Source: Carnegiea gigantea
Taxonomy: Eukaryota > Streptophyta > Magnoliopsida > Caryophyllales > Cactaceae
Assembly (NCBI GenBank): GCA_029747015.1
Contig: JAKOGI010000107.1
Coordinates: forward strand, 866,606-930,605
Direction: 5' to 3'
DNA: 64,000 nucleotides
This document shows positions 11,334 to 63,183 of this stretch, piece after piece. Made by a program: the position numbers and the translations under genes. How positions within the stretch are numbered: the stretch's first letter is position 1; the number at the start of each line of letters is the position of its first letter. The notes beneath the pieces are model-generated. The model saw only the letters and a list, made by a program, of their open reading frames with translations. It searched no databases and was not told where the DNA came from.

Positions 11334-13108
11334 CCTGTTCTTTTTGTTTGAAAATTATAGGGGTAGGATGGTTGAGAGTGGAAGGGGAGGAAGGAGTGGG
11401 TAGGAGTTGTATTTTTTTTTTTTTTTAAAGTGTGGGAAAGAGGGGGAAGGAGTGGAAAAGAGTGAGAAGAAGGGGAAAGGAGTGAGAATGAGTTGCATAA
11501 CGTAGAAGAGTTGATGTAAGTTATGTATTTTGGTTTTTAATGTAATCTTTTATTTGTGATGGTAATTATCGATGATAAAAAAATATTTAGACTGAAAAAA
11601 CTATTTCTGTGTTGACTCAGGTACAAAATATTGTTTCGTGGCCATGGTTACCTCAAAAAAATTGTAATTTTCGTTATTCGTAAAACAAATTACGGATATA
11701 TTTTTTTCATATATTAACCAAATACGAACAACGAAAAAAATACACATATGTTCAGGCCTTGTTCTTTTCGTTGGTAAATTCAAATTTATCAACCTTAATC
11801 CACTTCAACCCACATCAACTCACTTTACGAACTTCAATAAAAAAATATCAACTTTAATTAATTTCAACCTACTTTAATCCACTTCAACTAACTTCAATCT
11901 AGTTCAGTCCACTTCAATCAACCATTTTCCACTATTTTGGCCCTATTCTTTTCGTGGGTCAATTATAAAATATCAACCTCAACTCACTTCAACCTACTTC
12001 ACCCCACTTCAATCTACTTCAACCCACTTTCATTATTTTAACCAAATTTAATTTGTCACATAAAAAAATTCAACCCACTTCAACAAGCTTCAACTCACCT
12101 CAACCTACTTCAACCTACATCAACCTACTTCACCCTTTTATCCACCCCAATTTATCCATGAAAAGAACAGACCCTTTAACCAACTTTTACCCATCATATA
12201 AAAAAATTCAACAAATTTCAACCCACTTCAACCTACTTCAACTAACTTCAACTTATTTCAACAAAAAAATACCTACTTTAACCCACTTCAATAAAAAAAT
12301 ACCCACTTCAACCTACTTTAACCCACTTCTATCAATCTCAACCAACTTCATCTATTTACTAATCAATATTTCCCAATGAAAAGAACAGACCTTCAGTATA
12401 CGGAAAGCAATCATCTGCAATTTGTATGAAGAACTTTCAATATTTTGTCACTAATGCACACGGAAAAAAATATTCGCTCCAAATACACGTACAATACATT
12501 TGCACTTCCTGTCACAAATTACAAACAACGCCAAAAAATTTACACATTCTTTCATCATGTCGGAAAAAACATCTGCAAATTTAGCCACAAATTACGATGA
12601 ACAAAAAATAAATATATTACACATACAGCAACAATCATCCACGCTTTGATGACCTATAACAATATTTCGTAACCAACGCAAAAATAAAAAAATTAAACAT
12701 CTTGTCCATATACAGAATCAAACCAAAAATATCTACCAGTCACAAAAAACTAGCATTTACTTAACAAAGCGAAAAAAAATTATTTCTTCAATATATATAA
12801 CAAAAATTACGTCATCTACAATTTTTGGCACGACTAATAAATATTTTTATAACATCTGAAAGATAAATAAAACTTTTCATAAATATTATCAAACTATTCA
12901 TACACACAATTACATAAATTATAAAAGTTTTCAAAATATGAAACATCATAGTTATATATAGGAGTGGGAAGGAGTGGGTGAAAGTGGATGAGAGTGGGAC
13001 GAAGTAGTATTTTTTTAAAGTGTGAGAAGATATGAAAAAGGGGGGAAGAAGTGGGTGAGGATGGAAAGGAGTGAGTTGAATTCATTAAACTACGAAAAGA
13101 ACGAAAAT
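11334..13108. repeat. Nested MITE-like repeats with GTTCTTTTCGTTGG-type ends
   Basis: Several copies of a terminal motif GGCCyTGTTCTTTTCGTGG or its complement (CCAATGAAAAGAACAGACC) are packed here. An outer pair at about 11755 and 12388 encloses an inner pair at about 11939 and 12174. The interior is a degenerate run of 'CCCACTTCAACCTACTTCAA' units. Outside them are two related purine-rich blocks (11334-11515 and 12957-13108) sharing 'GTATTTTTTTTAAAGTGTG' and 'GGAAAGGAGTGAG', the second ending CTACGAAAAGAACG. The simplest reading is element within element within element. Only a possible TTCAG repeat flanks the outer pair, so the exact boundaries are unsure. Confidence 0.6.
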
Positions 13109-18807: not shown

Positions 18808-19503
18808 ATGACTAGGACAAAAGTAAAGCTGGAGTACATACAGAATGACACCACTAGGAGGGTGACCTACAGGAAAAGGTCGAGGGGGTTATTGAAGAAA
18901 AGTCGAGAACTGAGTGTCCTATGTGGGGTGGACACGTGTGTTCTCATATACAGCCCCTATTCAACAACCCCCCTGATGTGGCCTTCTATTGAGGATGAAG
19001 CAAAGAGGATCCTGATCGAGTTCAAGATGAGGCCGATGGCCGAGCAGTCCCAAAGGCGGTTCAACCAGGAGAAGTACCTAAGGGAGACTTTGGCTAAGGC
19101 AAAGGAGAAGTTAGCCAAGCTGCAGAGTAGGAACCGTGAGTTGGAGATGGAGAATTTGATCATGAACCTCCTCGATGGGAAGCCACTCAAGGAAGTTCCC
19201 ATTCGCGATTTAGGGGACTTGCTTTGTGCTATTGATGATAAGTTGAGGATTATTCAACATAGGATTGGGATGCTTGAGGGGAATAATAATGCTCTTTCTC
19301 CTCCCAATTATCCTAACCTTGGTGCTAATGAAAGTGTTAATCATGCTTTTAGTAGTAATCATTTTGTCAGGCATGAGATGCTGATCAATGGGATTCACAA
19401 TGTGATGGGTGTAACCCCGCCGTGGGAAATGGAGACTGCCCCTTCACAATGTCCTTCAGGAAATGGGCAGCCCACGAATGGGGATGGCTGCGATTTTGGC
19501 TGA
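18808..19503 (+). CDS. Type I MADS-box transcription factor, M-gamma / AGL80-like, intronless
   Basis: A 231-residue nuclear DNA-binding protein. Residues 1-60 form the MADS domain (MTRTKVKLEYIQNDTTRRVT, then YRKRSRGLLKKSRELSVLCG, then VLIYSPY). MTR-K-KL-YI and the following 'WPS' are marks of the M-gamma class that includes AGL80 and PHERES. Residues about 90-125 (EKYLRETLAKAKEKLAKLQS, RNRELEMENLIMNLL) are predicted coiled coil. The C-terminus is Asn/Pro-rich and variable, as usual. Type I genes lack introns and this one does too. The start at 18808 was preferred over the in-frame ATG at 18772 because MTR opens the MADS domain in relatives. In Arabidopsis, M-gamma proteins act in the central cell and endosperm, pairing with M-alpha partners. 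The exact orthologue cannot be named. Confidence 0.93.
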   Translation: MTRTKVKLEYIQNDTTRRVTYRKRSRGLLKKSRELSVLCGVDTCVLIYSPYSTTPLMWPSIEDEAKRILIEFKMRPMAEQSQRRFNQEKYLRETLAKAKEKLAKLQSRNRELEMENLIMNLLDGKPLKEVPIRDLGDLLCAIDDKLRIIQHRIGMLEGNNNALSPPNYPNLGANESVNHAFSSNHFVRHEMLINGIHNVMGVTPPWEMETAPSQCPSGNGQPTNGDGCDFG

Positions 19504-37792: not shown

Positions 37793-37859
<67 letters not shown>

Positions 37860-37864
37860 AGAAC

Positions 37865-37949
<85 letters not shown>
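37793..37949. repeat. Compound AT/GT microsatellite, left flank of the Tat element
   Basis: (AT)n, then (GT)n, then GAGAACATACATACATACAT, then a long (AT)n that runs directly into the 5' LTR. The other side of the element (52839-53055) has the same kind of sequence. Confidence 0.9.
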
Positions 37950-37954
<5 letters not shown>

Positions 37955-37955
37955 T

Positions 37956-38416
37956 TGGGAAAAATTCGATTTTTCCTAAGTGGGCCCATCCAAGCTAGAC
38001 CCATAAACAAGGCCTATACCCTGGATAATGGGCCCTAAGACGCAACCCTAGGGGCTCCTCCTAGGGCCCTTCTATGCTGAGACCGGCGGTCGACGAGGGT
38101 GTTCTAGGTAAAATTACTCTTCTATCCCTTTGCCTAAGGGACTATAAGTAGTCACTTACCCTCCTCAGGAAAAGGGTTGGCACTCGGATATACTAAACTC
38201 ATACTGCATTCTCTCTTTCTTTTGACCTGTAACTTGGATCTTGGGCTGGTTTGACTGTCGAAGAGGCGTCCCGGCCCACAACTCGGGGGTGCCTTTTTTA
38301 CAAGTTGGGCCACTTGGAGAAGAGGACGTTAGGTGTTGCACGTAAGCTGTCAGATAAACCCGTTCCTGCGTCCCATGTCATTATTAGCAATACCTCAGAA
38401 GAATATTTTGCAATCA
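37956..38416 (+). repeat. 5' LTR of the Tat element
   Basis: Starts TGGGAAAAATTCGATTT and ends GCAATCA. It matches the 3' LTR along its whole length. The TATA box position reads TATAAGTA (38143-38150), against TATAAATA in the 3' LTR, a likely loss of promoter strength. Confidence 0.9.
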
Positions 38417-38528: not shown

Positions 38529-40180
38529 GTGCAGGACACATCGCAGAGTTCGCGGGCAAATCCCCGATCAGCTAGCGCGACTCGTCTTGAGAGAGAAGCG
38601 TACGTCACAGTGGACGCTCTGAAAAACTTTATGTCCACCATGATGGACACTATCACCTGGCAGGTCTCAGAACAGGTTAAAAGGGCTATGGAGGTGGCTA
38701 ACTTGACTAGGCCGCTTCCTCACCTCGATTACATACCTACCCACGGGGGTGAGCCCTCCCACCGGCCGGAGCGGGTACCATCTCTCTGTTACCCAGAGCG
38801 GAAGCAAGAGGTATCTCGGTCGAACCGGAGCGGTCGGCCCTATATAGAGCAGCTAAGTCGACGTGCGTCAGCGAGACCCAGTGGCCGTCCCACGCAGGGG
38901 CAATGGCCAAATCAACAACTGCTTCCACTCCCTATGCAACCTATTGCAGGCGAACCACCTAGCTCGAGGAACAAGAACAGACTTCCAAGCCTTGGGGGGA
39001 TATCTCGGGCAGGCGACGGCTCAGCCCGGAACGCTGTACCCACCGTGACTGCACACGAAGCCCTCCGCGGGAGATCCGCGGTTAGGAGCCGCGCCGAGGG
39101 GACCGGTCCCCTGCAAGGGCTTCGAGGCACGGCAGGGAGAGGAAAAGTGCTTCTGTTGCTGAGGTGGAGCACAATCCTGAAACCCCCATCAAGGTGTCGG
39201 GAACGGCCGCTCGACCAACTGCTTCTCCCTTCTCCACCTCGTTCAGCGCGGAAATCACCAACGTTCCGTGCTACGAGAAAGTTAAGATGCCCACGGTAGA
39301 CCTTTACGATGGGACAATAGATCTCGAAGAGCATCTGGGGGTCCACAAGGCGCAGATGTATATGCAGGACGTAGACGATGATGCTTATTGCCGCTATTTT
39401 TCTGCTACCTTAAAGGGAGTGGCGCAATCATGGTTTAATGGTCTGCCTCCGAGAAGCGTTACTTGTTTTCAGGATCTGGCTGACAAATTTCTTAGCCAGT
39501 TCATCGCCAGTCGGAAGGAAAGGAGGAGTAGTATCCACCTGTTCAAAATTAAGCAAGGACCACAAGAGTCCCTCGCCGAATTTGTCAATCGCTTCCATCA
39601 GGAGGCCGTGCTGATTCCAAACCTGGAAGACGAGGTGGCTTACACCTCTTTCTTGAACAGTCTCAAGAGCGGCTGTTTCAAGTTCTCCTTGGCGGAACAG
39701 AAGGAGACCACGTTAGTCGAGGCCCTGAGGAAGGCCGCAGATTTCATTCGCGCCACAGAGATTTGTGCTGACAATTATGACGACCCGAAGAAGGCTGGGA
39801 TCCCGGGGCATAAGAATCTCAATCGTGGCAACAGGAATCCCGCCCCCCGAGAAATAAGACCGCTATTAGAGGCAATCGACCCTCGGTTTACTACCTATGC
39901 TAGAAGCATCCTCATGGAGGTCAGGGGACATTCCGTGCTCCGAAGACCGCCACCTATGACCGCACCCCCGAAGCCGCAGAATGCCAGGAAATATTATGAG
40001 TTTCACGAGCAGAGTGGACACACCACCACTGAGTGCTGAGAGCTGAATAAAGCCCTTTATGAATTAGCAGACAAGGGTCAGATCGATCGATTTTTGAAGA
40101 GAGGGCCCGATTCATTTGACGAGAACAGGAGCCCACACAACCCCAACCGCGAGATGAGGAGTGTTCGCCAGAAGTTGTGG
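38529..40180 (+). pseudogene. Tat element gag (broken)
   Basis: The N-terminal part is an open frame at 38529-39299. The conserved capsid-like retrotransposon gag domain is in another frame at 39164-40036 ('YFSATLKGVAQSWFNGLPP', 'FLSQFIASRKERR', 'LAEFVNRFHQEAVLIPNL'), so at least one shift lies near 39170-39290. A stop (TGA, 40037-40039) replaces what is normally Trp or Arg after the zinc-knuckle region. In that knuckle (YYEFHEQSGHTTTEC) the first Cys has become Tyr, so zinc binding would be lost. After the stop the frame continues with 'LYELADKGQIDRFLKRGP', a usual Tat gag tail. Confidence 0.85.
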
Positions 40181-40742: not shown

Positions 40743-42350
40743 TTGGTGAGCATCAGACCCCTGGTAGGACGAACGAAGGAGCATGGGCCTAATGGGTTGT
40801 CCCAGGTGGAGAAGCGTGCAAGGACTGGACCAGCCACCATGGTCCCAGAAGCATTGGTCATCCACACCCTCACCTTGGCAGAACTCTCACGGCCTCGACT
40901 AGAGGCCGCAGGTGATGTGGAGCAAGTTTCACTTGAAGAGGAATGGCTTGAGCACATAGTTCAGCTAGGTTAAGATATCACGGCCCTCAATTAGCAATCA
41001 TTGCTTTCCCTCTTACAGAAGTATAAAGATATCTTCGCGTTTGGACCTGTGAAAATGCCCGGTATCGCCCCAACTGTTATGGAATAGTGGCTGAACATGG
41101 ACCCTCAGCATAGGCCGATCATCTAAAAAAAGGACCATATGGGCCCAGAGAGAGCGGCTGCTGCTAATGCTGAAGTATAGAAGTTGCTAGAAGTTGAGTT
41201 CATTCGAGAATGCCAATACCCCGAATGGATCTCGAATGTGGTGTTAGTGAAGAAACCCAACGGTACTTGGAGAATATGCATGGATTTCACGGATTTGAAC
41301 AAGGCCTGTCCAAAGGATAGCTACCCGTTGTCGAAAATTGACAAGTTGGTGGACGCCACGGCCAGACATGCCTTTTTGAGTTTCGTGGACACTTTCTCCA
41401 GGTACCACCAGATACCCCTCTGCCCGAAAGATTAGGAAAAGACTGCGTTCATCACAGACCGCGGCCTCCACTGTTATGAGATGATGCCCTTTGGATTAAA
41501 GAATGCAGGGGCCACTTACTAGCGCTTGGTTAACAAATTATTCGAACTCCTCATTGGCAAGACCATGAAAGTCTACGTCGACGACATGATAGCAAAAAGC
41601 AAGATCGATGGGATCATGGCCATGATTTGAGGAAGACGTTTGATATACTACGGGCCTTCAGCATGAAGCTTAGCCCCAAGAAGTGCGTATTTGGGGTACG
41701 GTCGGGCAAGTTCCTCGGCTTCATGATCAACAACCGCGGAATCGAGGCTAACCCGGACAAGATTCAGGCCGTCCTCGACATGAAGCCTCCACGGAGTGTA
41801 AGAGAAGTGCAACGCCTAACCGGCTGCATAGCCGCCTTGGGCCGATTTATGTCCTGGTCCACAGATAAGTGCTAACTGTTCTCCCGCATCTTACGACAGC
41901 AGGCCAACTTTAGTTGGGACCAGCAGGCTGACGAGGCTTTCCAAGCCTTGAAGACCTACCTATCTCAGCTACCCAAAATCCCCAGCCCCGTGGAAGGGCA
42001 AATTTGGGTCCTGTATTTGGCTTTTTCAGAGCACGCAGTCAGCGCTGCTCTCATAGTGGAAAGGGCAAGGGAGCAGATCCCGGTGTACTACGTAAGTTAT
42101 GATTTGGCGGGGGCGGAAGTGAACTATCCTCTTATAGAGAAGTTTGCCTATCCCTCAGTGATGGCCAGTTGGAAGCTGAGGCCTTCCTTTGAGGCTCACA
42201 AGATCCTGGTCCTAGCCGATCAGTCCTTGAAGAACATCCTTCAGAAGTTAGATGCCTCAGGGCGGCTCTTGAAATGGGCCGTCAAACTATCACGCTATGA
42301 CTTGGCCTTTGAACCACAGCGGGCCATCAAAGCCCAGGCGTTAGCCGACT
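40743..42350 (+). pseudogene. Tat element reverse transcriptase and RNase H
   Basis: RT blocks are visible in order: 'GTWRICMDFTDLNKACPKDS', 'FLSFVDTFSRYHQIPLC', 'MMPFGLKNAGATY', and the catalytic YVDDM at about 41576. The connecting 'LSPKKCVFGVRSGKFLGFMI' and an RNase H segment ('LYLAFSEHAVSAALI', normally with Asp at the start) follow. Stops include 41433-41435 and 41520-41522 (TAG for Gln), and a frameshift lies at about 41625. Confidence 0.9.
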
Positions 42351-42389
42351 TTTTGGCCGAGAATACAATGACAGCTGAGGAGGGTGACT

Positions 42390-42700
42390 TGCACCAGCGG
42401 CCCTGGAACCTGTACATGGATGGCTCGTCCACCAAGGACGGGAGTGAGGTCGACCTCATCATTGAAAGTCCCGTCGGGGCACAGTACGAGCAAGTTTTGA
42501 AGTTCATGTTCAAGGCATCCAATAATGAAGCAGAACACAAAGCCCTCATCGCGGGAATAGAGCTATGTTAGACCGTGGAGGAGGATTCTGTCCAAGCCTT
42601 CTCTGACTCCTAGTTAGTCGTCAGCCAGCTCAACGACGCATATAAAGTAAAGGATGACACTATGGCCGCATATGTTCGGCGGGTACAGGACGAGTTAGTT
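42390..42700 (+). pseudogene. Tat element second (archaeal-type) RNase H
   Basis: 'WNLYMDGSSTKDGSEVDLII' and 'FKASNNEAEHKALIAGIELC' are the D-G-S and N-N-E-A-E core motifs of the extra RNase H that marks Tat elements. TAG stops at 42569-42571 and 42611-42613 both sit where Gln is usual. Confidence 0.88.
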
Positions 42701-43029
42701 ACTAAAACACTTTGCAATCACACACATCCCTCGCTCAGAGAACCGACAGGCTAATGCCCTGTCTAAACCGACAAGCTCATCTGATGACGGGAAGCCCAAA
42801 CACATTCTGTAGGAGACCCTGACGGAGAGGAGCATCGACCTACATGAAGTGTTGTGGTTAGACAGTAGCTTGAAATGGATGGATCCTATCCGCACGTACC
42901 TCACCGACGGTACCCTTCCCCCAGATCCCAACGAAGCGGATAGAGTGAAAAAGAGGTCAAACTAGTTTATCCTATACAAGGGGATCTTATACAAGAGATC
43001 TTTCGCCTGGCCTGTCCTACGCTCAGAAG

Positions 43030-44098
43030 GCGGGAAAAAGATACTGAAAGAGCTTCACGAAGGCGTTTACAGTACACATGCTGGAGGCCGCGCCCTAGTT
43101 GTTAGGGCCATTCGAACTGGCTACTACTGGCCCAGTTTGCGGAAGGATGCAATGACACTAGTGCGGACCTGTGACAAATGCCAAAAGTTTTCCCCCATCC
43201 TGCGAGTACCCTCCACCCCCATGACGCCAATCGTCAGCCCCCTACCGTTCGCCACATAGGGAATGGATATCCTCGACCCTTTCCCCAAAGCTACGGGGCA
43301 GCGTAAGTACATTTTTGTGGTGGTCGACTACTTTACCAAATGGATAGAGGCCAAGGCCGTAGCCTCTATAACCACCGTTGAGGTGCGAAGGTTCATTTGG
43401 CGGAACATCATCACCAGCTTCGGTATCCCTCGTGCCATCATATTTGATAACGGCAGGCAGTTCGACACCAGTAGGCTCACGAACTATCTCAGCAGCTTAG
43501 GCTGCCGAGCTCGGTTCACCGCTATGGCTCATCCTCAGACTAACGGCCAAGCCCAGGCGGCCAACTAGTCTATCCTCCATGGCCTATAGAAGAAACTCGA
43601 TGACGCAAAGGGCAAATGGGTGGAGGAACTACACGACATCCTGTGGTCTCTCCGTACTACTGAGAAAACCGCTACTGGCGAAATCCCTTTCAGGTCAGCT
43701 TATGGGTCCGAGGCTATTCTACCTGTGAAGGTCACCCTCCAAACTTATCGGTTGACAACTTTCTAAGAAGAGTTGAACAATGCAGCGCTCCAAGAAGCTC
43801 TCGAGCTCCTTCCCTCCCTCCGCGGCGACGCTCTCCTTCGAGAGGCCCTCTATAAACTCCGTATCGCATGCCTGCACAATTGCTCAGTGCGATTGCAACC
43901 AATTCATATGGGCAACTTCGTTCTCCGACACATGGAGGCCGTAGCTCGTGCGAGGGAACATGGAAAACTCACTGCTAATTGGGAAGGTCCATACAAGGTT
44001 GCTTCTCAAGTCTGTCCCAGAACGTATCGCCTCCAGACCATTAGCAGCTCTCCCATACCACGAACCTAGCATTCCAGCAACCTGAGCAAGTACTATAC
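43030..44098 (+). pseudogene. Tat element integrase
   Basis: The zinc-binding end is visible as 'TCDKCQKF' (about 43170). The catalytic core has 'MDILDPFPKATGQ', 'VVVDYFTKWIEA', 'GIPRAIIFDNGRQF' and 'AHPQTNGQAQAAN', with the final Glu in 'VEELHDILWSLRTT'. The C-terminal part ends 'GPYKVASQVCPRTYRL'. Stops at 43257-43259, 43566-43568, 43587-43589 and near 43764 break it. Confidence 0.88.
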
Positions 44099-44211
44099 TT
44101 AGGCTCATGTTTTTCGTTTTCCTCCAACAGACATGTATTCCTTTAGTACAAGTAACAAAATCAGAAGCCCACAGCGGCCACGTTTGCACTCATCCGCACC
44201 CTCTTTTTTTC

Positions 44212-44868
44212 TAAGCACGGTCTTATAGCCGGTCATTACACTGTTAGCCCCAATGGGGGTAAGGGTCTCTAAGCACGACCTTATAGCCGGTCGCTACACT
44301 CTTGGCCCCAATTGGGGCTAAGGGTCCCTAAACACGACCTTATAGTCGGTTGCTACGCTCTTGGCCCAATGGGAGCTAAGGGTCCCTAAGCATGGCCTTA
44401 TGGCCGGTCGCTATAATCTTAGCCTTAATGGGGGCTAAGGGTCCCTGATCACGGTCTGACGGTCGGTCGCTATACTCTTAGCCCCAATATGGGCTAAGGG
44501 TTCCTGAGCATGGCCTTGTGGTCGGTCGCTATACTCTTAGACCCAATGGGAGCTAAGGGTCTCTGAGCACGGCCTTACGGCCGGTCGCTACACTCTTAGA
44601 GGGTCCCTAAGCACGGCCTTATGGTCGGTCGCTACACTCTTGGCCTCAATGAGGGCTAAGGGTCCCTGAGCATGGCCTTATGGCCAGTCGCCATGCCCCA
44701 ATAGAGGCTAAGGGTCCCTAAGCATGGCCTTATGGTCGGTCGCCACAATCTTACCCCCAATGGGGGCTAAAGGTCCCTAAACATGGCCTCATAGCCATTC
44801 GCTACACTCTTAGCCCTAATGGGGGCTAAGGGTCCATAACCACGGCCTCTTGGCCAATCACAAGACGA
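44212..44868. repeat. Hairpin repeat array 1 (about 12 units of ~59 bp)
   Basis: Direct repeats with a regular 59-bp step from 44229 to 44581, then some shorter units. Each has CACGGCCTTATGGCCGGTCG, then CTACACTCTTAG, then a hairpin of the form TTAGCCCCAATGGGGGCTAA (8-bp stem, 4-base loop), then GGGTCCCTGAG. A second small palindrome, GGCCTTATGGCC, lies in most units. No open frame spans it. It starts about 115 bp after the integrase end. Confidence 0.9.
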
Positions 44869-45117
44869 GTTACATATTCCTCAGCCAAACGACACATCAC
44901 TTCTTCTTTCGCGTAGGGGTTGCTACCCTACAGCATATGAAGAACGAAAACACAAGCTAAAATGAAAGAGCAAGTATGAAGCAGAAGAGCGATCAACAGA
45001 AGAAGCTGGTTACCAGAAATGAACATTTTTCACTAATGAAGTACGAGCACAATCTCTAATTAAAAAAAAAAAGAGGATGAGGAAGAAAGAAGAAAGAACA
45101 AGGGGAAAAGAGGGAGG

Positions 45118-47564
45118 TTACACATCGGGCTCTCCACTATCCTCATGACCATCCTCTTCAGAAGCCTCGGCTTCAGAATCTAAGGGGTTAGTTGCCTCAT
45201 CCCCTACAGCCTCACCCTCGCTAGGAGGAGGAATGAATTCCACCTCCTCAGGGTTTCGGCCTTCGTTCCCGCCGGTGCTCGTCTACGTAATGGAGGTAGG
45301 CCTCGAAATAGCCATCCTCCTGAAATTCCTGAGCCAAAGTCACCAAGACTTTGTATAAATACCCCAAGGTATCGGCATGGCCTTGTTGACAGCCTTGCTC
45401 TTTGGCTTGAGCCACCCTTTCAGCCCCCGCAGTTGCTTCAATCTTGGCCTTTGTGAGCGCCTCCTCTAGTTGATGCTGCAAGTCTTTCTTCTCGGCCTCT
45501 TGGGCCTCCTGATCATCCTTCAGCTTTTTCCAGCGCCGCTGGTATCTGGTTGCAAGCCCCTCCAGCCTTCGGCACTCCGCTGCGGCTCTCACCCCCTGAG
45601 GGAATGCTTCGGCCATTGTCACCTCCTCCTCGGTGATCCTGAGGGAATCTGAGGTGCCCGAGGTCGCCAAGTCCCACGACTTCATTAAGTCCTGAACAAG
45701 TGAAAACTTAGCCGCGGGATCCGCCTTGATAAAATTAATGGATGGCCGCTGGGCCCTCAGGAGAGAACTGCCGACGGCTTTAGAAGCAGCCCCCACGATC
45801 TTAGAGGGGGCAGTTTGTTCCTAGAGACCGGGGGTTCGATCCCCAGTTGACCGACTTCCAGATTGCCGAGGGGCAGATCGTGCGGCTCCTGCTTCCCCTG
45901 CATGGGTAGGGGCGGATGCCGCGGTCTCATTAGGGCAGCCCTCAGTTCATTGGCCCTTGCGGATCGGTAAGCTGATGGCAGGCTTCTTTCTACGCGGTGC
46001 TAGAAGGGGTGCCTGCGGTCAAAATAACTTAGTCAGATTATCCCAAACCAGGGATCACGAGGAAAGGGGGCGAATAGGGTTCTAAAGTGCACCTTCTTGG
46101 CTTGTTGATTGATGAGGCGTTGCCTCTCCCCTTCTCGACGGCGCTCGGCATCGGCTGCCACTTGCTCCGGAGTGACGTCCTCGGTCTCAAAGACCGTCAG
46201 CCTCGCCCTTTGCTTGCTCTACATAAAATAAAAGGGAAGTCAGGTCACAACCAAACAGAAAAGCTGACTAACATTGGGACGACCAATACCGTTAGAAAAA
46301 TTTTTAAGGATCAAAAGGGCCACCGCGGCAAGGAAGAAGTGATTCCTAAAAAACATCAACTTAGGGAGCTAATTCAAAGGTTCCCTATCACTAGACTTGC
46401 TTTTCCTCTTCTCAGGGCTCTTCACGGATTCTATCGCCTGAGCCATAAACTTGGGGATGGGCCGGGGCTTATCGTCTTCCTGTATGTTGAATTAGAAATA
46501 ACGAGCCGTTTTTCTTTCCTTGGCCGTGGGCTCTCCAAAGGGGTTCCTAACAGGCTTACCCTCGTTCTAGCCAGGAACCTTCCCCCACCTGACTCTCGAC
46601 GGACAAAGAGGAAGTCATATTTCCAATACTTCACCTTTGACTTCTTCTCGATGGCCATCATAAATCCCAGCCTGTTGTTAAAACAATATCATCCCAAGTC
46701 CCCCGTCTCCTATGGGGTCTTCTGGACGGTATGCATGAGACTAAACGCTCGTGTTGAGCAGGTAAGACTGTGCAGTTTGCAAGTAGCGATGAAAGAACAA
46801 ATGTTGTGCCATGATGTGGGCATAACCTGCGCGGGTGCCAGTTCATACTCGTTCAAAATCTCTTCAATTACCGGGTGAAGAAGAAATCGGAGACCGTAGT
46901 TGAGAGTCGCGCGATAAACAGCTATACATTTGGCGGGCGGCTCATTCACGGTGGCGTCCGCCTTAGGGATTACAAAGGTGTACCCAGCAGGCAGGAGGTA
47001 TTGCTCCTCGCGGGCCATCCTTTTTAGTGTAGGCACGATCTTGGGGTAGGGAAAGTAACTGCCCGGATCGTCCTACGGGTCCAAGCGGGTTAAGGCCCCC
47101 GGGAATTCTGGTCCCTCCGCAACAATCTTCGGAGCTAGTCTCACGGGCGAACGACCTTTTCTCTTAAGTACCGACTTACCTAGAGCCGAATGCCCTTCGT
47201 GGGGCGAGGAGCTAGTCGACACCACCTCCGAGGATGAACACCTCAATGAGCTGTCAGAAGAGGAGGAGGAGGTTTCCCCTAAGGTAGAACTAGTACTAGT
47301 GGAGGCCACTTTGGCCCTAGATTTTGATGAGCTTGGGGCAGAATGGGGATTACCTTGTGTACTCTCGGCCAACAACTCATCTGAAGACCTGATGCGAGGG
47401 GTAGACTTGGTTTTTGCCATTCTTCGTACCTGAAAATCAGTCATATAGTCAGCTATGATGATATCCCATGGATATGAGACCTCTACCTCAGAACTAAGGA
47501 TGCTAGGGGTGGAGGAGTACTCGCAGCTACACCACGAAGGAGTGTCTGTTTCAAAAATAGGCAT
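45118..47564 (-). pseudogene. Antisense accessory gene of the Tat element ('putative gypsy type transposon' domain), broken
   Basis: The minus-strand frame from 47564 (or from the in-frame ATG at 47420, MAKTKSTPR) runs through a Ser-rich N-terminus. A domain follows with 'EEQYLLPAGYTFVIPKADAT', 'AVYRATLNYGLRFLLHPVIE' and 'YWKYDFLFV', the layout of the plant 'putative gypsy type transposon' family (Pfam PF04195 from memory) found antisense in Tat elements. In-frame stops at 47073-47075 and 46710-46712 and a TGA near 46690 look like CAG or TGG changed by transition. After a damaged or intron-containing stretch (46430-45800), a C-terminal part (45796-45248) is strongly coiled-coil. After a shift it ends in an acidic tail (stop at 45118-45120). 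Function unknown. Confidence 0.75.
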
Positions 47565-48001: not shown

Positions 48002-48078
48002 TTATATAGAGTAAGGAGGCAGGACACACCTCCCGAGAACACCCAGCAGGCACGACCCTTCCCAACCAACGCCACGTG
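48002..48078 (-). promoter_or_regulatory. Promoter of the large antisense gene: G-box plus TATA
   Basis: Read on the minus strand: CCACGTGGC centred at 48073-48078, then CTCTATATAAG at 48002-48010, about 65 bp downstream. The gene start lies 440 bp or more further on. The G-box sits next to hairpin array 2. Confidence 0.6.
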
Positions 48079-48104
48079 GTGACTTGTTATCATCTCATCA
48101 TTAG

Positions 48105-48722
48105 CAAGACACTCTTAGCCCGATGGCCGGTCGCTACACTCTTAGCCCCAATGGGGGCACAGGGTCCCTGAGCACGGCCTTATGATCGGTCACTACACTT
48201 TTAGCCCCAATTGGGGGCTAAGGATCCCTGAGCATGGCTTTATAGCCGGATGCCACACTCTTAGCCCCAATGGTGGCTAAGGGTCCCTAAGCACGGCCTT
48301 ATGGTCGGTCGCTATACTCTTAGCCCCAATGGGGGCTAAGGGTCCATGAGCACGGCCTTATAGTTGGTCGTTACACTCTTAGCCTCAGTGGGGACTAAGG
48401 ATCCGTAAACACGGCCTTACGGATGGATGCTGCACTCCTAGCCCTAGTAGGGGCTTACAATCCATGAGCACGGCCTAAGGATCGGTCGATACACCTTGAG
48501 GCCGGTTGCTGTGCTCTTAGCCCTATTTGGGGCTAAAAGGATCTCAAAGTAGGTCCTAGGGCCGGGCGCTCCACTCAGCCCTCGTAGGGGCTAAGAACCA
48601 CAGGGTATGGATCTGCAGCCGATCGCTACATGCTTAGCCTTTGTGGTGGCTAAGGGTTCCAGAGCACGACCTCGCCATCAGTCGTTATACTCCTAGCCCT
48701 AGCAGGGGTTAGCAATCACAAC
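48105..48722. repeat. Hairpin repeat array 2 (about 11 units of ~59 bp)
   Basis: Same unit and same orientation as array 1 (for example CTCTTAGCCCCAATGGGGGC then TAAGGGTCC), with a 59-61-bp step and greater decay at the right end. Together the arrays bracket the antisense gene and its promoter as direct repeats. Confidence 0.88.
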
Positions 48723-48764: not shown

Positions 48765-48775
48765 GATCTTTTATT
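48765..48775 (-). terminator. Poly(A) signal of antisense mini-gene unit A
   Basis: AATAAA on the minus strand, about 70 bp after the stop codon of copy 1. Confidence 0.45.
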
Positions 48776-48843: not shown

Positions 48844-49299
48844 CTACTTCTCATCACTTGACATAGGAGGAGCATCACTAAAACTCGAGGCCTTCGTAAG
48901 ACCGCTAGAGGAAGCGAGGCCAACGGAAGGGTTCACAAGGCACAAAGCGCGGGCTCCCCTGAGCATGTACTCGATGTTCTAGAACCAAAACTCAAAGGGA
49001 CCCCAATGCAGCTACTGCAGGGCCCACATCAGGTACTTCGCCGAGATTCTGCACGTGATACCCTGCTCTGCAACTTTGTTCATGACTATGGCGAAGACAG
49101 CCTGCAACATTTCGGGGATGGTGGAGTCTGGGCCGCACTGCGTAGCCACGCCGGGGTTAAAACTTGGACAGAGGATGAGGTGATCCTCAGGGAGTGGCCT
49201 CGGACGCTGGGCCAAGGTCTCTCTCAGCGGCCATCAAAAGGCTTCTCGCGCGTATTCGGCCGCCATCTCGGTGCCAGTGAAATTCGGAAAGTGAACCAT
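48844..49299 (-). pseudogene. Antisense mini-gene A (copy 1 of an unrecognised domain family)
   Basis: One frame of 152 codons from ATG at 49299 to TAG at 48844, interrupted only by three nonsense codons. The first is TGA at codon 22, where copy 3 has CGA. The opening is MVHFPNFTGTEMAAEYAREA. The shared core follows: 'PLPEDHLILCPSFNPGVA', 'IPEMLQAVFAIVMNKVAE', then 'HWGPFEFWF', ending SSDEK. The same domain occurs in copies 2-5 to the right. I do not recognise it; the core is predicted to be mostly helical, with no signal peptide or metal-binding cluster. It has its own TATA box and G-box upstream and AATAAA downstream. Confidence 0.7.
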
Positions 49300-49380
49300 G
49301 CTTTTCTTCTTTCCCTCTCTTCTCTAAAGAATTGGAGAATGGGCAGGAGGTGACATGATAAAGAAAGACCCGTTGCCCTC

Positions 49381-49456
49381 TTTATAAGAAAGGAAGCAGA
49401 TCGGAGTATGCTTCCTTTCCCGAGGCGTCCTTCAACTAGCCTACCATCGACACGTG
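49381..49456 (-). promoter_or_regulatory. Promoter of mini-gene A: G-box plus TATA
   Basis: On the minus strand GCCACGTGTCG (CACGTG at 49451-49456), then CTTATAAAGAGG at 49381-49388, about 85 bp before the start codon. Confidence 0.6.
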
Positions 49457-49553
49457 GCACTTACCAACTGGTACCCAATTCATGAAAATAATAAAAATAA
49501 AAGATAAGCAATGAAGGCGAAGAATTGCCTGCTCCTAAAAGAAAAAGAGGGCG

Positions 49554-49564
49554 GCGTTTTATTG
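49554..49564 (-). terminator. Poly(A) signal of mini-gene B
   Basis: GCCAATAAAACGCC on the minus strand, about 70 bp after the final stop of unit B. Confidence 0.45.
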
Positions 49565-49629
49565 GCAAGATCTGCAATTACACACACCTTCCTCATGGGG
49601 GGACATACAAGGGGAGGGGAATCTTAATA

Positions 49630-50499
49630 CTACTCCTCGTTCACTCAACAGGGGGGCATGCCCTCCGCCTCGGAGTCACCGTTGGGCATGGCCGAGGGTT
49701 ATACACCGTTTCCACCAGGCAAGGAAACTTGGGCATCTTTAAACTTGTCCTCATTAGACAACAGCCACGCTTCAATGATGTCCCATCTCAACTTCCGTAA
49801 GTCCAACATCAGGCTCTCTTCAGTCTCTCTCCTAATGAGCCTCAGTATTCCCACGTCGTTGATCACCATGGGATAAAAGATGGCCTGCACCATCTCAGGG
49901 ATATAGGTAGCATGTGCAAACTGCATTGCCACAATATGGTCGAACTCGGGGCAGTAGGCCGTGAAATGTAAAGGGAGCAAGTTCAGACAGAGGCTTGATG
50001 TTTCCCTCACGGACTAGCAAAGGTTGTTCCTAACATACTCTGCCGCCTATACGGTGTCACGGAAGGAAGGAAAGAAGGCCGTCTTCCCCTTTGAGGGACC
50101 GCCAGCTAGTGCGGGGTTTGTCGGGGGATCGGTTGGACAAGAGGCCTGGGCTCATCGGAGTCTTCGGCCATTGTCCCCGAGCCATGCTTCCATAGGGCCC
50201 CAGTCCAACTTTCGCATGGCCCACATCACGCAGTCCATGGTAAGCCTGCATGAAAGGTCCAACTCAACGGCGTCATTAATAATCATGGCGTAGAAGATTA
50301 TCTGCACCATCTTTGGGATGTCGGAATCGCAAGCATATCGCATCGCCACCCCAAGGTCGAAACGGGGATAGAGGCCGTGGTAGTCCGATGGAAGCGGCCT
50401 ACAGCCAGGAGCCGAGGGATCCCTCAACGGCCATCGAAAATGGTCACAGATGTATTCGGCCGCCTACTCTGTGTTAGTGAAATTAGTAAAGAGCTTTAT
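49630..50499 (-). pseudogene. Antisense mini-gene B (copies 3 and 2 fused in one frame)
   Basis: 290 codons in a single frame from 50499 to the TAG at 49630, broken only by nonsense codons (including 50152-50154 TGA and 49699-49701 TAA). It contains the family domain twice. The first has 'PLPSDYHGLYPRFDLGVAMR', 'IPKMVQIIFYAMIINDAVEL' and 'LDWGPMEAWL'. The second has 'CPEFDHIVAMQF', 'IPEMVQAIFYPMVINDV' and 'LRWDIIEAWL'. Each domain opens with (E/V)-x-AAEY. The first codon, aligned with the ATG of copy 1, is ATA. A C-terminal 'NEE' echoes the SSDEE end of other copies. A tandem domain duplication inside one gene is the simplest reading. Function unknown. Confidence 0.68.
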
Positions 50500-50570
50500 T
50501 TTCGATTTCTCTCTCTTCCCACTTCTCACCTGCAAGGGAAAATGTGAAGTTCTATGGGCACCTCAGCCTC

Positions 50571-50648
50571 TTTATAAAGAGAGGAAACCAATGCCCAAAG
50601 AGGTACAACCCCTGAGGGAGCAGTAGGCCACCCCTACCTCGCCACGTG
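50571..50648 (-). promoter_or_regulatory. Promoter of mini-gene B: G-box plus TATA
   Basis: On the minus strand GCCACGTGGC (50641-50650), then CTTTATAAAGAGG (50569-50581), about 75 bp before the first codon. Confidence 0.62.
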
Positions 50649-50780
50649 GCTCCTGTAATTTGGAATCCTGACCTAAAGTAAAAGGAAAACATTTTTATAG
50701 CCCTAGAGTCCATCATTCATCACAAAGCGTATCATAAGGCAAGAAGGAAACAGTTCTTCATGACAAAGAAATGCTACTTT

Positions 50781-50788
50781 ATTATCAA
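50781..50788 (-). terminator. Poly(A) signal of mini-gene C
   Basis: GATAATAAAGTAGC on the minus strand, about 75 bp after the stop of unit C. Confidence 0.45.
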
Positions 50789-50859
50789 AAGCCCCCACGA
50801 GGGGCAGCCTCAGGAAAGAAAGGGGACGATACAAGAGAAAACCCAAAGCCAAACTGAGG

Positions 50860-51313
50860 CTACTCCTCGTCGCTAGAGGGGGACCGGGGGCCATTTGATC
50901 CCGAGCTCCCTTCCTGACCATCCGAAGGACCACGAACCTCCCTCGTGATGGCCTGTTATCGAAGCTGCGCTTCTCTCAGTTCGTAATCAACACAGCTCAT
51001 CCAGACCTCAAAGCTTGACCACCTCAAACCCACCAGGGCCAACCTCAAGCCTTCGACCATAAAGCCGTGTACCACCCCCAACTCCACGGCCTCATTCAGC
51101 AACATGGCATAAAATGTCGCTTGCATCATTTCAGGGAGCTCAAAGTCCGTTGCCGCTCCTTCAGCCTCGGGCAATGAAAAGTGTGGACATAAGACATGGT
51201 AATCTTCGGGAAGGGGGGTGAGGCGAACATGTGGCCCTCCTCCAGTGCCAGATGAAGGATTCCCTCACATAGTCGGCCATCACTCTGGTGTTGTAGAGGG
51301 GAGGAAACGCTAT
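50860..51313 (-). pseudogene. Antisense mini-gene C (copy 4)
   Basis: 454 nt, so one frameshift relative to its siblings; it lies near 51230. The first part reads 'AFPPLYNTRVMADYVRESF' and starts with ATA where copy 1 has ATG. The second part reads 'FELPEMMQATFYAMLLNEAV' then 'LRWSSFEVWMSCVDYELREA' and ends SPSSDEE. A premature TAA follows LREAQLR. This is the best-preserved core of the family. Own TATA, G-box and AATAAA. Confidence 0.7.
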
Positions 51314-51426
51314 AATGAAAGGGAAAATGGGCGTACCAATCGTTCTTTGTCTTCACTCCTCTCCCATTGTATTGCTTCCTTATGAAGGATGGATACCTCC
51401 ATTTAATGTATAGGATTATGAAGTTG

Positions 51427-51509
51427 TATTTATAGAGGGGGCATAGGGAAAGTTGGGAGATAAGGAAGTACTCCCAAGCACCTAATGGCCAATTCATTTC
51501 AGCCACGTG
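51427..51509 (-). promoter_or_regulatory. Promoter of mini-gene C: G-box plus TATA
   Basis: On the minus strand GCCACGTGGC (CACGTG at 51504-51509), then CTCTATAAATAC (TATAAATA at 51427-51434), about 115 bp before the first codon. Confidence 0.62.
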
Positions 51510-51579
51510 GCGATTTAGTCAGCACCAATTGAGACCAGCACAAATAGAGTAATGACTATTTAGAAAGGTATAAAAGCAC

Positions 51580-51590
51580 GGCCTTTTATT
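51580..51590 (-). terminator. Poly(A) signal of mini-gene D
   Basis: GTAATAAAAGGCC on the minus strand, about 80 bp after the stop of unit D. Confidence 0.4.
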
Positions 51591-51665
51591 ACTGTCATCA
51601 TAGGAGATACAAAAAAAAGGAAAAGAAAAGAAAAGGAAAAAGCTGGTGGGGGAGAGGCCGCGCGT

Positions 51666-52096
51666 TCAAGGGCTTAAAAGCTTCACCTCCGAGCCCTCTT
51701 CTTGTAGGCCGGCTCCTGAAGTTTCCTTTGGTGCCGCCTTCGTCCGGAACTGAGCTTCGAAAATTCGGTCATCATACAGCTACACCCACGATTCAAAGGT
51801 GTTCCAACGAAGTTCAGTGAGGGCTGACTCCAACGTTCGAAGCACTCACCCGTGCAAGACCCCAAGCCTTTCGGCCTTATTCAGAAGCATTGCATAAAAG
51901 ATTTCCTGGGGCAGCTCTGGGAATTCATAGTCCTCGACAGCCTCCTCGGCCACGGCCAACTTGTAGCTCGAGCATAAGGCCTGAAAGTCTTTTGGGAGAG
52001 GCAACGGTGGGAAGGCAGCCCCACGCTGGTCCCACACGAAGTGGCGGACAACATACTCAGCCATCTCCTTAGTACTGAGGGAGCATGGAAAGCCAT
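51666..52096 (-). pseudogene. Antisense mini-gene D (copy 5)
   Basis: The frame begins 'GFPCSLSTKEMAEYVVRHF' (an ATG at 52096 is one base out of step, so the start is damaged), then 'PLPKDFQALCSSYKLAVAEE', 'FPELPQEIFYAMLLNKAERL' and 'LRWNTFESWV'. Stops are TGA near 51846 (aligned with an ordinary codon in siblings) and TAG near 51770 (CAG type), with the end at 51666-51668. Upstream is TATAAAAGG (52165-52173), but no G-box was found within 100 bp of it. Confidence 0.65.
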
Positions 52097-52164
52097 GAAA
52101 GGAACGCCAGATAACGATCGTTACGGAAACATGAAGGATGGACCATCCCCTCCTCGGCAGTTGC

Positions 52165-52173
52165 CTTTTATAC
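52165..52173 (-). promoter_or_regulatory. TATA box of mini-gene D
   Basis: TATAAAAGG on the minus strand, 70 bp before the damaged start. No CACGTG lies at the position seen in the other units. Confidence 0.5.
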
Positions 52174-52374
52174 TTGCGAAGAAGGCAGTTTCCTAAAACC
52201 GCCGTCCAAGTCTCGAAACTTGCCCACTTATGGTCGGTGGCCATGGAGCCATCCGTCGTAAGGGCCTAATTTTCGAAGACCCCGGGATGCATGTCGACCT
52301 TGGACAGTTCTCCACATTCTATCTGACTGCTCATCGGGCTCGACGTGCAGGAAAAATGCGAGGGGCTAAGTAAT

Positions 52375-52836
52375 TGGGAAAAATCCGATTTCCCCTAGGT
52401 GGCCCTATCCAAGCTAGACCCATAAACAAGGCACATACCCTGGATAATGGGCCCTAAGACGCAACCCTAGGGGCTCCCCCTAAGGCCCTTCCATGCCGAG
52501 ACCGGCGGCCCACGTGGGGTGTTTCAGGTAAGATTACTCTTTTATCCCTTTATTTAAGAGACTATAAATAGTCACCTACCCTCCTCGGAAAAAGGGTTGG
52601 CACTCAGATATACTGAACTCATACTGCATTTTCTCTGTCTTTTGACCTGTAACTTGAATCTTGGGCTGACTTGATCATCAGAGAGGCGTTCTACGGCTCA
52701 TAACCCGGGGGTGCTCTTTTTGCAAGTTGGGCCACTTGGAGAAGAGGACGTCAGGTGTTGCGCGCAAGCTGTCAGATAAACCTGTTCCTTCGTCCCACGT
52801 CATGATCAGTAGTACCTCAGAAGAATATTCCGCAAT

Positions 52837-52838
<2 letters not shown>
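52375..52838 (+). repeat. 3' LTR of the Tat element
   Basis: Starts TGGGAAAAATCCGATTT and ends CGCAATCA. TATAAATA is at 52563-52570. It carries CCCACGTGGGG at 52509-52519, where the 5' LTR reads GTCGACGAGGG, so a G-box is kept only here. A purine stretch GCGAGGGGC just upstream is the likely polypurine tract. Confidence 0.9.
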
Positions 52839-61314: not shown

Positions 61315-62688
61315 TAAAATTTCATACTCTCTTGGTAAATCAACCTTGTATGCATTGTCATTTACCTTCTCTAGGACCTCAAATGGACCTTCAGCTCTTG
61401 GCATCAGTTTGTTCTTCCTTGTGGAAGGAAATCTCTCCTTCCTCAAGTGGATCCATGCTAGGTCTCCAGGTTGAAAAACCATCTTTCTCCTATGCTTGTT
61501 GGCTTGGGCTTCATAGGATGCATTTGTTTTCTTAATTTTGGGCTTTATCAACTCATGGAGCTTTTGAATCTCTTCTACTCTTCCCACTGCATCCACACTT
61601 GGTTTCTAGTCTAGGGGTCGTGGGTTGAGGTCAATGGGACTTAATGGATCAACCCCATATACCACCTTGACAGGAAGGGAACCAGTAGCCTTACTTCACG
61701 CTTTGTTATATGCAAACTCAGCATGGGGTAAGAGCAAATCCCAAACTTTGGCATGAGGTTTAATCAAAGCTCTTAGGAGTGTACCTAAGATTCAATTAGT
61801 CATCTGAGTTTGCCCATCAGTTTGGGGGTGACACGTGGTACTATACATTAATTTAGTACCAAGCGTCTTCCAAAGGGTAATCCAGAAATGGCTTAAAAAC
61901 TTTGTATCCCTATCAGAAATAATAGACTTAGGGATAACATGTAAGCTAGTTACTTCTTTAAAGTATAATTCAGTAATTTGTGTAGCATCATTGGTCTTGT
62001 TGCAAGGTATAAAGTGTACCATCTTTGAGAATCTATCTACTACCATAAATATTGAATCCTTGCCCCTTTGAGTCTTAGGTAGACCCAAAATAAAGTCCAT
62101 GCTCACGTCCACCCAAGATTGAATCGAAACTGGAAGTGGCATGTGCAAATCATGGGATAAGGTGTGACTCTTGGCAACTTGGCATGTTCTACACCTTCTT
62201 AGGATGTCTTAAACATCCTTTTCCATTCCAGGCCAGTAGTAATGTTCCCTTAACATGATGAAGGTCTTGGATTCATCAAAATGACCAGTCAATGAACCAC
62301 CATGAACTTCCCTAATTAGGAGCTCACGGGTGCTACACTTTGGAATACACAATCGTACTCCCTTGAATAAATAGCCCTCTTGGATTAAGAAATCCTCCTT
62401 GGGGTGCTTCAAGCACACAGAATATAAGTCCCCAAGGTCTTCATCATCAAGACATAAACCTTTTAGATGCTCAAAACTAAGAATAAGAGCATCCAATTGA
62501 AATAGAAGGAGATGCCTCCTAGACAATGCATGGGCACCTTGATTTAACTTTCCAAATTTGTGCTTAATGGTGAAGTAGAATGACTGTAGGAACTCCACCC
62601 ATTTACCATGGCGTGAGTTTGACTTGTGTTGGCCTTGAATATACTTCAAAGCCTCATGATCTAAATGCAAAATAAACTCACTAGCCAC
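61315..62688 (-). pseudogene. Gypsy integrase, main part (broken)
   Basis: The zinc-binding end at about 62330-62210 reads 'STRELLIREVHGGSLTGHF' (H-x-H type, one His now Leu/Gly context) and 'YYWPGMEKDV'. The core reads '[20 protein letters not shown]', '[14 protein letters not shown]', '[17 protein letters not shown]' and '[16 protein letters not shown]', with D, D preserved. The post-core reads 'FQPGDLAWIHLRKERFP' and 'GPFEVLEKVNDNAYKVDLP'. Stops lie at about 62206 and 61790 and the section between 61790 and 61596 is damaged. Confidence 0.88.
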
Positions 62689-62700
62689 TAAATAATGGCT

Positions 62701-63183
62701 CTAATGCTCTAAACACTGTACAATATCATAGAATTTCTTGTCATAAGTGGAGTACTTTCTTCTTGAATCACATAACTTCTCACTAAAGAAGGCTAATGGC
62801 TTGCCCTCTTGTGTAAGAACGCCACCTATACCCACTCTTGATGCATCACATTTAACTTTAAAGACCTTCTCAAAGCAAGGCAAAGCAAGGACAGATGCAT
62901 GAGTTAGTCTTTTCTTTACTTCTTCAAAGGTAGATTGGGCTTTAGGGGTCCATTTCAACGATGTACCCTTAATTACCTTAGTCATGAGAGCTATAATATT
63001 GCTTAAGTTTTGAATAAACCTCTTGTGAAAGAAAGCTAATCCATGAAAGTTTCGAACATTATGAATGCTTTGTGGTTGAGGCCATGATCTTATAGCCTCT
63101 AACTTGCTCTCATCTGCCTTTATCCCTTCTTCAGAGACAATATAATCTAAGAATGTAACTTTATGAGTGAAAAAAAAGTACAT
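62701..63183 (-). pseudogene. Gypsy RNase H region
   Basis: One frame from RT thumb ('[20 protein letters not shown]') through the RNase H start ('VKCDASRVGIGGVLTQEGKP', with the first catalytic Asp) to 'AFFSEKLCDSRRKYSTYDKK'. It ends at a stop that replaces Trp after 'LEH'. The next frame continues with 'LHLDHEALKYIQGQ' after 62688. Confidence 0.88.

Follow-up and report, generated by a model that had tools for sequence, protein, structure and literature searches.

Plant elements with antisense accessory genes have been on record since the 1990s, but no function for these genes is known. To transpose, a long terminal repeat (LTR) retrotransposon is considered to need no more than gag and pol (PMC7264820), and whether extra open reading frames (ORFs) have a function is treated as open in PMC6317226 and PMC7264820. 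According to PMC11963269, 97% of Retand clusters have antisense TRP28 ORFs, about half have tandem arrays, and the TRP28 protein is predicted to bind DNA. That survey took ORFs of at least 600 bp and kept shorter ones only if they had a TRP28 domain, while PMC6317226 set a minimum of 250 codons for extra ORFs and raised doubts about their function. Antisense ORFs are reviewed in PMC7264820, including maize gene23, which is transcribed from its own upstream promoter. Here we analyzed a 64,000-nucleotide (nt) window of Carnegiea gigantea (saguaro; contig JAKOGI010000107.1, positions 866,606-930,605 of the forward strand) in which a Retand-type element carries an antisense array of five copies of one domain between pol and its 3' LTR. 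We put the probability at roughly 0.85 that this array is a multigene accessory locus of a Ty3/gypsy element, consisting of selected antisense protein genes. A fixed domain order, the ratios of nonsynonymous to synonymous change (dN/dS), and well-kept TATA and AATAAA signals are the reasons for reading the units as selected protein genes and not as relics or chance.

Five domains in four antisense units

The five copies (A-E) of the ~90-residue domain occupy 52.1-48.84 kb and form four units, namely A, B, the two-domain unit C+D, and E, which adjoin an antisense TRP28 gene. The units and their candidate signals, in the order in which the minus strand reads, are:

52167..52172, minus strand: TATAAA of unit A; no CACGTG within the 80 nt examined upstream
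51666..52096, minus strand: unit A, one domain, one frame change near the start and two internal stops
51585..51590, minus strand: AATAAA after unit A
51429..51509, minus strand: promoter-like module of unit B, CACGTG 51504-51509 and TATAAA 51429-51434
50860..51313, minus strand: unit B, single domain and SSDEE tail, interrupted by a frame change and by one stop; start placed via relatives
50778..50783, minus strand: AATAAA after unit B
50571..50648, minus strand: promoter-like module of unit C+D, CACGTG 50643-50648 and TATAAA 50571-50576
49699..50499, minus strand: unit C+D, continuous frame with four internal stops, start approximate; C at ~50155-50463, D at 49702-50013
49558..49563, minus strand: AATAAA after unit C+D
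49381..49456, minus strand: promoter-like module of unit E, CACGTG 49451-49456 and TATAAA 49381-49386
48844..49299, minus strand: unit E, one domain; a single frame leads from the ATG to the SSDEK tail and is interrupted by three stops
48770..48775, minus strand: AATAAA after unit E

An earlier note on this DNA, made from the letters alone, had proposed five antisense copies of one domain in four units. Profiles of the five subtypes, made without window sequence and scanned against all six frames of the window (E up to 0.1), bear this out, matching the five array loci and nowhere else; the reversed window gave zero matches. For every copy the top score came from the matching subtype, with the second-best in brackets: A 112.5 bits (62.7), B 158.6 (107.8), C 157.1 (83.3), D 161.8 (77.2), and E 109.9 (57.3). 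The open pieces of the translated copies also align as one family, in agreement with the profiles, so the failure to align that the note had named as refuting its proposal did not occur. The S-S-D-E ending that had been ascribed to each copy is present in B (SSDEE) and E (SSDEK) and absent from A and the end of C+D.

Relatives and conserved order

Protein searches turned up 173 relatives in the first round and, when 42 of these were aligned to form the query, 218 in the second; with 120 listed from each, the matches listed comprise 219 distinct proteins. Among these, 120/219 are Carnegiea gigantea 'hypothetical proteins' from the same genome as the window, and 50/219 terminate in an S-S-D-E-type tail. 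In the tree, 112 of the 122 domain rows fall in five clades, one per window copy, with uneven support. Members of one subtype share a mean identity of 0.59-0.66, members of different subtypes 0.30-0.53. Four of the relatives (P0196, P0194, P0068, and P0069) are closely related, open, B-like proteins of 150 residues, 85-93% identical to P0196 and all ending in SSDEA, and may come from another cactus.

We examined 40 genomic loci in the 1.13-Gb, 5575-contig Carnegiea gigantea assembly. A lack of open frames in related elements had been named beforehand as evidence against the proposal; what these loci carry is the same array, in A-B-C-D-E order in 29/40, with no domain matches on the other strand at any of the 40. 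Within gene models the order was A>B in 48 cases, B>C in 18, C>D in 19, D>E in 4, A>C in 3, and B>D in 2, and none was reversed. A and B within one gene model co-diverge (Mantel r 0.73, reached in 0/2000 permutations; 39 models).

Selection on the proteins

For each domain we compared genomic copies codon by codon, leaving out pieces that scored below 40 bits and pairs sharing fewer than 40 codons. Pooled dN/dS, with 95% intervals by column bootstrap, was 0.356 for A (0.251-0.455; 32 loci, 357 pairs), 0.369 for B (0.275-0.501; 33 loci, 524 pairs), 0.375 for C (0.279-0.505; 34 loci, 484 pairs), 0.419 for D (0.302-0.568; 34 loci, 465 pairs), and 0.345 for E (0.237-0.480; 39 loci, 574 pairs), and dN was lower than dS in 2347/2404 pairs. 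Integrase of the same family, our yardstick, gave 0.398 (0.319-0.501; 19 copies), with dN lower than dS in 170 of 171 pairs. Of 18 integrase stretches retrieved, 17 had a like-oriented array locus at a distance of 4.5-8.1 kb, and for the remaining one the distance was 16 kb.

For each domain the proposed frame had the minimum dN/dS of all six, and next came, each time, the frame on the other strand with third bases in common (0.43-0.53). In close pairs the ratio was 0.55-0.76 and in distant pairs 0.27-0.34, a pattern we attribute to selection on source copies followed by decay after insertion. Among the five window paralogues, third bases were the most divergent in 10/10 pairs, and parsimony changes by codon base numbered 76/71/110 (p = 0.005). 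Judged from these codon comparisons, purifying selection acts on all five domains and is about as strict as on integrase. Past selection on the protein, which the earlier note had argued from frames kept over 150-290 codons, is thus shown by dN/dS between genomic copies, measured against integrase; the frames in the window itself are broken.

Promoter and poly(A) signals

TATAWA precedes all five antisense genes of the window, TRP28 included, and each of the units A, B, C+D, and E is followed by an AATAAA in the gap behind it. Across loci, TATAWA was found upstream of A in 25/33, B in 31/33, C in 29/34, and E in 31/40, and AATAAA downstream of A in 27/33, B in 31/33, D in 31/34, and E in 32/40. 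Relatedness alone would preserve some such signals, so we compared them with surrounding hexamers in the intervals separating domain A from B, B from C, and D from E at 29 loci. The three TATA signals, ahead of B, C+D, and E, were at the 100th, 95.8th, and 97.3rd percentile of conservation among all hexamers, and the three AATAAA signals, after A, B, and C+D, at the 99.2nd, 99.8th, and 99.6th. Measured against 218 AT-rich hexamers, the numbers at least equally kept were 0, 13, and 12 for TATA and 4, 1, and 2 for AATAAA, and the mean conservation of the six signals was reached by 0/20000 random sixes drawn from the same 218. Two further motifs, an AATAAA at 50500 (percentile 52.9) and a TATAWA at 50699 (84.7), were not specially kept.

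In the window, B, C+D, E, and TRP28 share a CACGTG 70-75 nt ahead of the TATA, and homology (z 6.5) links the sequences upstream of C+D and E. The units most likely have their own promoters and poly(A) sites, as the conservation of these motifs suggests. Conservation of TATA and AATAAA across copies speaks for individual promoters and poly(A) signals, as the note had proposed; CACGTG is not specially kept.

Protein properties

The domain, predicted to be all-helical, comes out compact and helical in two AlphaFold models, with mean pLDDT of 77.0 and 76.6, and in the model of a full-length relative the tail has low confidence. Fold searches with the array domain returned no usable structural relative, and none was found among solved structures (best E 0.99). 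Pfam on 42 relatives gave no consistent match, with seven families hit by one member each (best E 0.017). Proteins with an S-D-E tail are acidic (pI <6 in 38/40, median 4.95), and the median pI of 33 TRP28 pieces is 8.55; the acidic array proteins may pair with the basic TRP28 protein.

Two assignments of the array domains were rejected. TRP28 identity failed because no PF04195 match was found in the five window copies or the 42 relatives, and the array domain and TRP28 profiles are separate families as far as hhalign tells (probability 0.15%). An ENV-like additional ORF (aORF) was rejected on orientation, the array being antisense only and ENV-like aORFs being sense.

Proposed explanation and alternatives

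We propose that one ancestral antisense gene was duplicated in tandem to give four units with five domains, and that the duplication carried the promoter along for at least C+D and E. The units would then have diverged, with fixed order and protein-level selection maintained while the element multiplied. Each unit would be transcribed singly from the antisense strand, a placement in which unit terminators could not truncate the sense genomic RNA, and its product would be a small helical protein of acidic character, in many cases ending in a disordered S-S-D-E tail. Tentatively, these proteins may act in trans beside TRP28, likeliest as nuclear regulators in element expression, silencing protection, or integration. 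A more specific version is decidedly speculative: the five paralogues might form a new-fold helical hetero-oligomer and, with TRP28, make up a multi-subunit nuclear complex dedicated to regulating the element or to countering its silencing, the antisense genes letting several complete promoter-to-poly(A) units sit inside the element with the genomic RNA uncut.

Several observations weigh against a selected multigene locus. One or more units are absent in 11/40 loci, so the full set may not be required for every transposition. The loci were found via unit E similarity and therefore represent one family in one genome, not independent lineages, and gene models that join units are probably prediction artefacts. 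The dN/dS counts used open pieces only, so stop-rich copies contribute less. Two of the three TATA signals are not extreme singly (equalled or bettered by 13 and 12 of the 218 AT-rich hexamers), the CACGTG motifs between copies are at the 23rd-65th percentile and no better kept than their surroundings, and in the window alone 30% of shuffles for B and 52% for TRP28 also have a TATAWA in the gap, so that its presence there is unremarkable.

Antisense RNA across the 3' half of the element would pair with genomic RNA, a possibility raised in PMC7264820, and the transcripts might matter as RNA, as self-limiting double-stranded RNA or a small-RNA decoy, with the frames as relics. An RNA function gives codons no protection, however, and dN/dS of 0.35-0.42 is integrase-like and lowest in the predicted frame. 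We consider this very unlikely and disfavor RNA as the sole function, although protein and RNA roles could coexist. Capture of a host gene family would fit antisense units that resemble genes in their promoters and poly(A) signals. Yet the 42 relatives lack a consistent Pfam match, no relative was found among solved structures (best E 0.99), and all 120 named proteins of the 219 among the matches listed are unannotated Carnegiea proteins; a host origin is highly improbable. In the least credible account the array arose passively, by template switching or unequal recombination, and has no function. Tandem repeats, frequent in this region both in the window and in PMC11963269, and the 11 incomplete loci agree with this view, but it does not account for five diverged subtypes in fixed order and under selection, or for well-kept TATA and AATAAA.

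The products could also be structural particle partners, i.e. gag-like helpers, in place of nuclear regulators. Small all-helical paralogous domains could co-assemble, and retroviral capsids (E 5-9, not significant) are among the weak Foldseek matches. Gag families gave no sequence match, however, and antisense promoters imply expression uncoupled from gag, making this role unlikely. An array of selected antisense protein genes remains our preferred explanation.

The host element and its surroundings

The other features of the element are:

37950..38416, plus strand: 5' LTR, TG...CA (blastn LTR pair; ends read from sequence)
39086..40039, plus strand: gag (Retrotrans_gag PF03732, Pfam E=3.1e-14)
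41181..43568, plus strand: pol pieces in broken frames, reverse transcriptase, RNase H, integrase H2C2 and rve (Pfam)
44211..44887: 59-bp tandem repeat array 1
45248..47564, minus strand: antisense TRP28 gene in broken frames, PF04195 domain within 46713-47036 (Pfam and relatives)
48003..48078, minus strand: TRP28 promoter-like module, CACGTG 48073-48078 and TATATA 48003-48008
48095..48711: array 2 of 59-bp tandem repeats, sharing its unit with array 1
52367..52838, plus strand: 3' LTR (blastn LTR pair; ends read from sequence)

Gag (also in broken frames), reverse transcriptase, RNase H, and integrase are in Ty3/gypsy order according to Pfam. A piece positioned for a second RNase H (aRH) in the RNase H-integrase interval has a weak RVT_3 match (E=0.18) in broken frames. 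Beyond pol follow a 59-bp array, the antisense TRP28 gene, the second 59-bp array, the antisense domain array, and the 3' LTR. As read from its sequence, the element is Retand-type (Tat, Ty3/gypsy), with the anatomy surveyed in PMC11963269. Its LTRs are 86.9% identical over 466 columns (blastn), so the insertion is old. The insertion site is an (AT)n microsatellite (37795-37950 and from 52839 on), which makes a target-site duplication unreadable. With LTRs at 87% identity and every unit broken, the window copy is dead.

The TRP28 gene lies between pol and the 3' LTR, as in the Retand lineage. It matches PF04195 at E=6.1e-5 and 23.6 bits, under the curated Pfam cut-off of 26.2, and has 33 relatives at 64-81% identity, 16 of them with precomputed PF04195. 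The 59-bp arrays flank it on both sides, and their unit contains a CTTAGCCCC/GGGGCTAAG dyad. Folding of three array stretches beats most shuffles (z -5.7, -2.0, and -3.2). These arrays could possibly serve as a terminator or boundary between antisense genes.

Elsewhere in the window are fragments of the pol gene of a further retroelement, with RNase H and an integrase zinc finger (62212-63183, minus strand), a MADS-box ORF that is probably a host gene and presumably type I (18811-19500, plus strand; PF00319 E=2.8e-16), and degenerate repeats with a 10-bp period, many resembling TTCAACCTAC (11427-12350).

Comparison with known systems

The window element resembles those with antisense TRP28 aORFs of the Retand lineage or other antisense aORFs (such as Silene Retand, rice RIRE2, and maize Grande gene23) in its TRP28 gene and 59-bp arrays. 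It differs in that the array proteins are not TRP28 and comprise five paralogous domains in four units of ~150-290 codons, and its pol-3' LTR distance is ~8.3 kb compared with 2.9-6.6 kb in PMC11963269. Because antisense TRP28 genes are standard in Retand according to that survey, the novelty is the tandem paralogue array and not antisense coding. The claim that the array is unlike known accessory genes holds to that extent: no tandem antisense paralogue array was found in the literature searched by title or abstract start, a search that left subscription journals mostly outside.

Single-domain units would escape published surveys because of ORF cut-offs, and such arrays elsewhere may therefore have been missed. 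With five domains about as constrained as integrase, the question of whether extra ORFs function becomes directly testable. The array also suggests how a retroelement can carry several independent genes, each antisense and with its own promoter and poly(A) site.

Lentiviral vpr/vpx offer a likeness in that a retroelement accessory gene was duplicated and diverged, but they are sense-strand genes expressed from a single promoter with splicing, whereas the saguaro array consists of antisense units with their own TATA and AATAAA. Human T-cell leukaemia virus (HTLV) is likewise a retroelement with a gene on the antisense strand that has a promoter to itself (PMC11963269, PMC7264820). The promoter of that gene is inside the 3' LTR (PMC7264820), whereas the promoter-like modules of the saguaro array lie between the genes.

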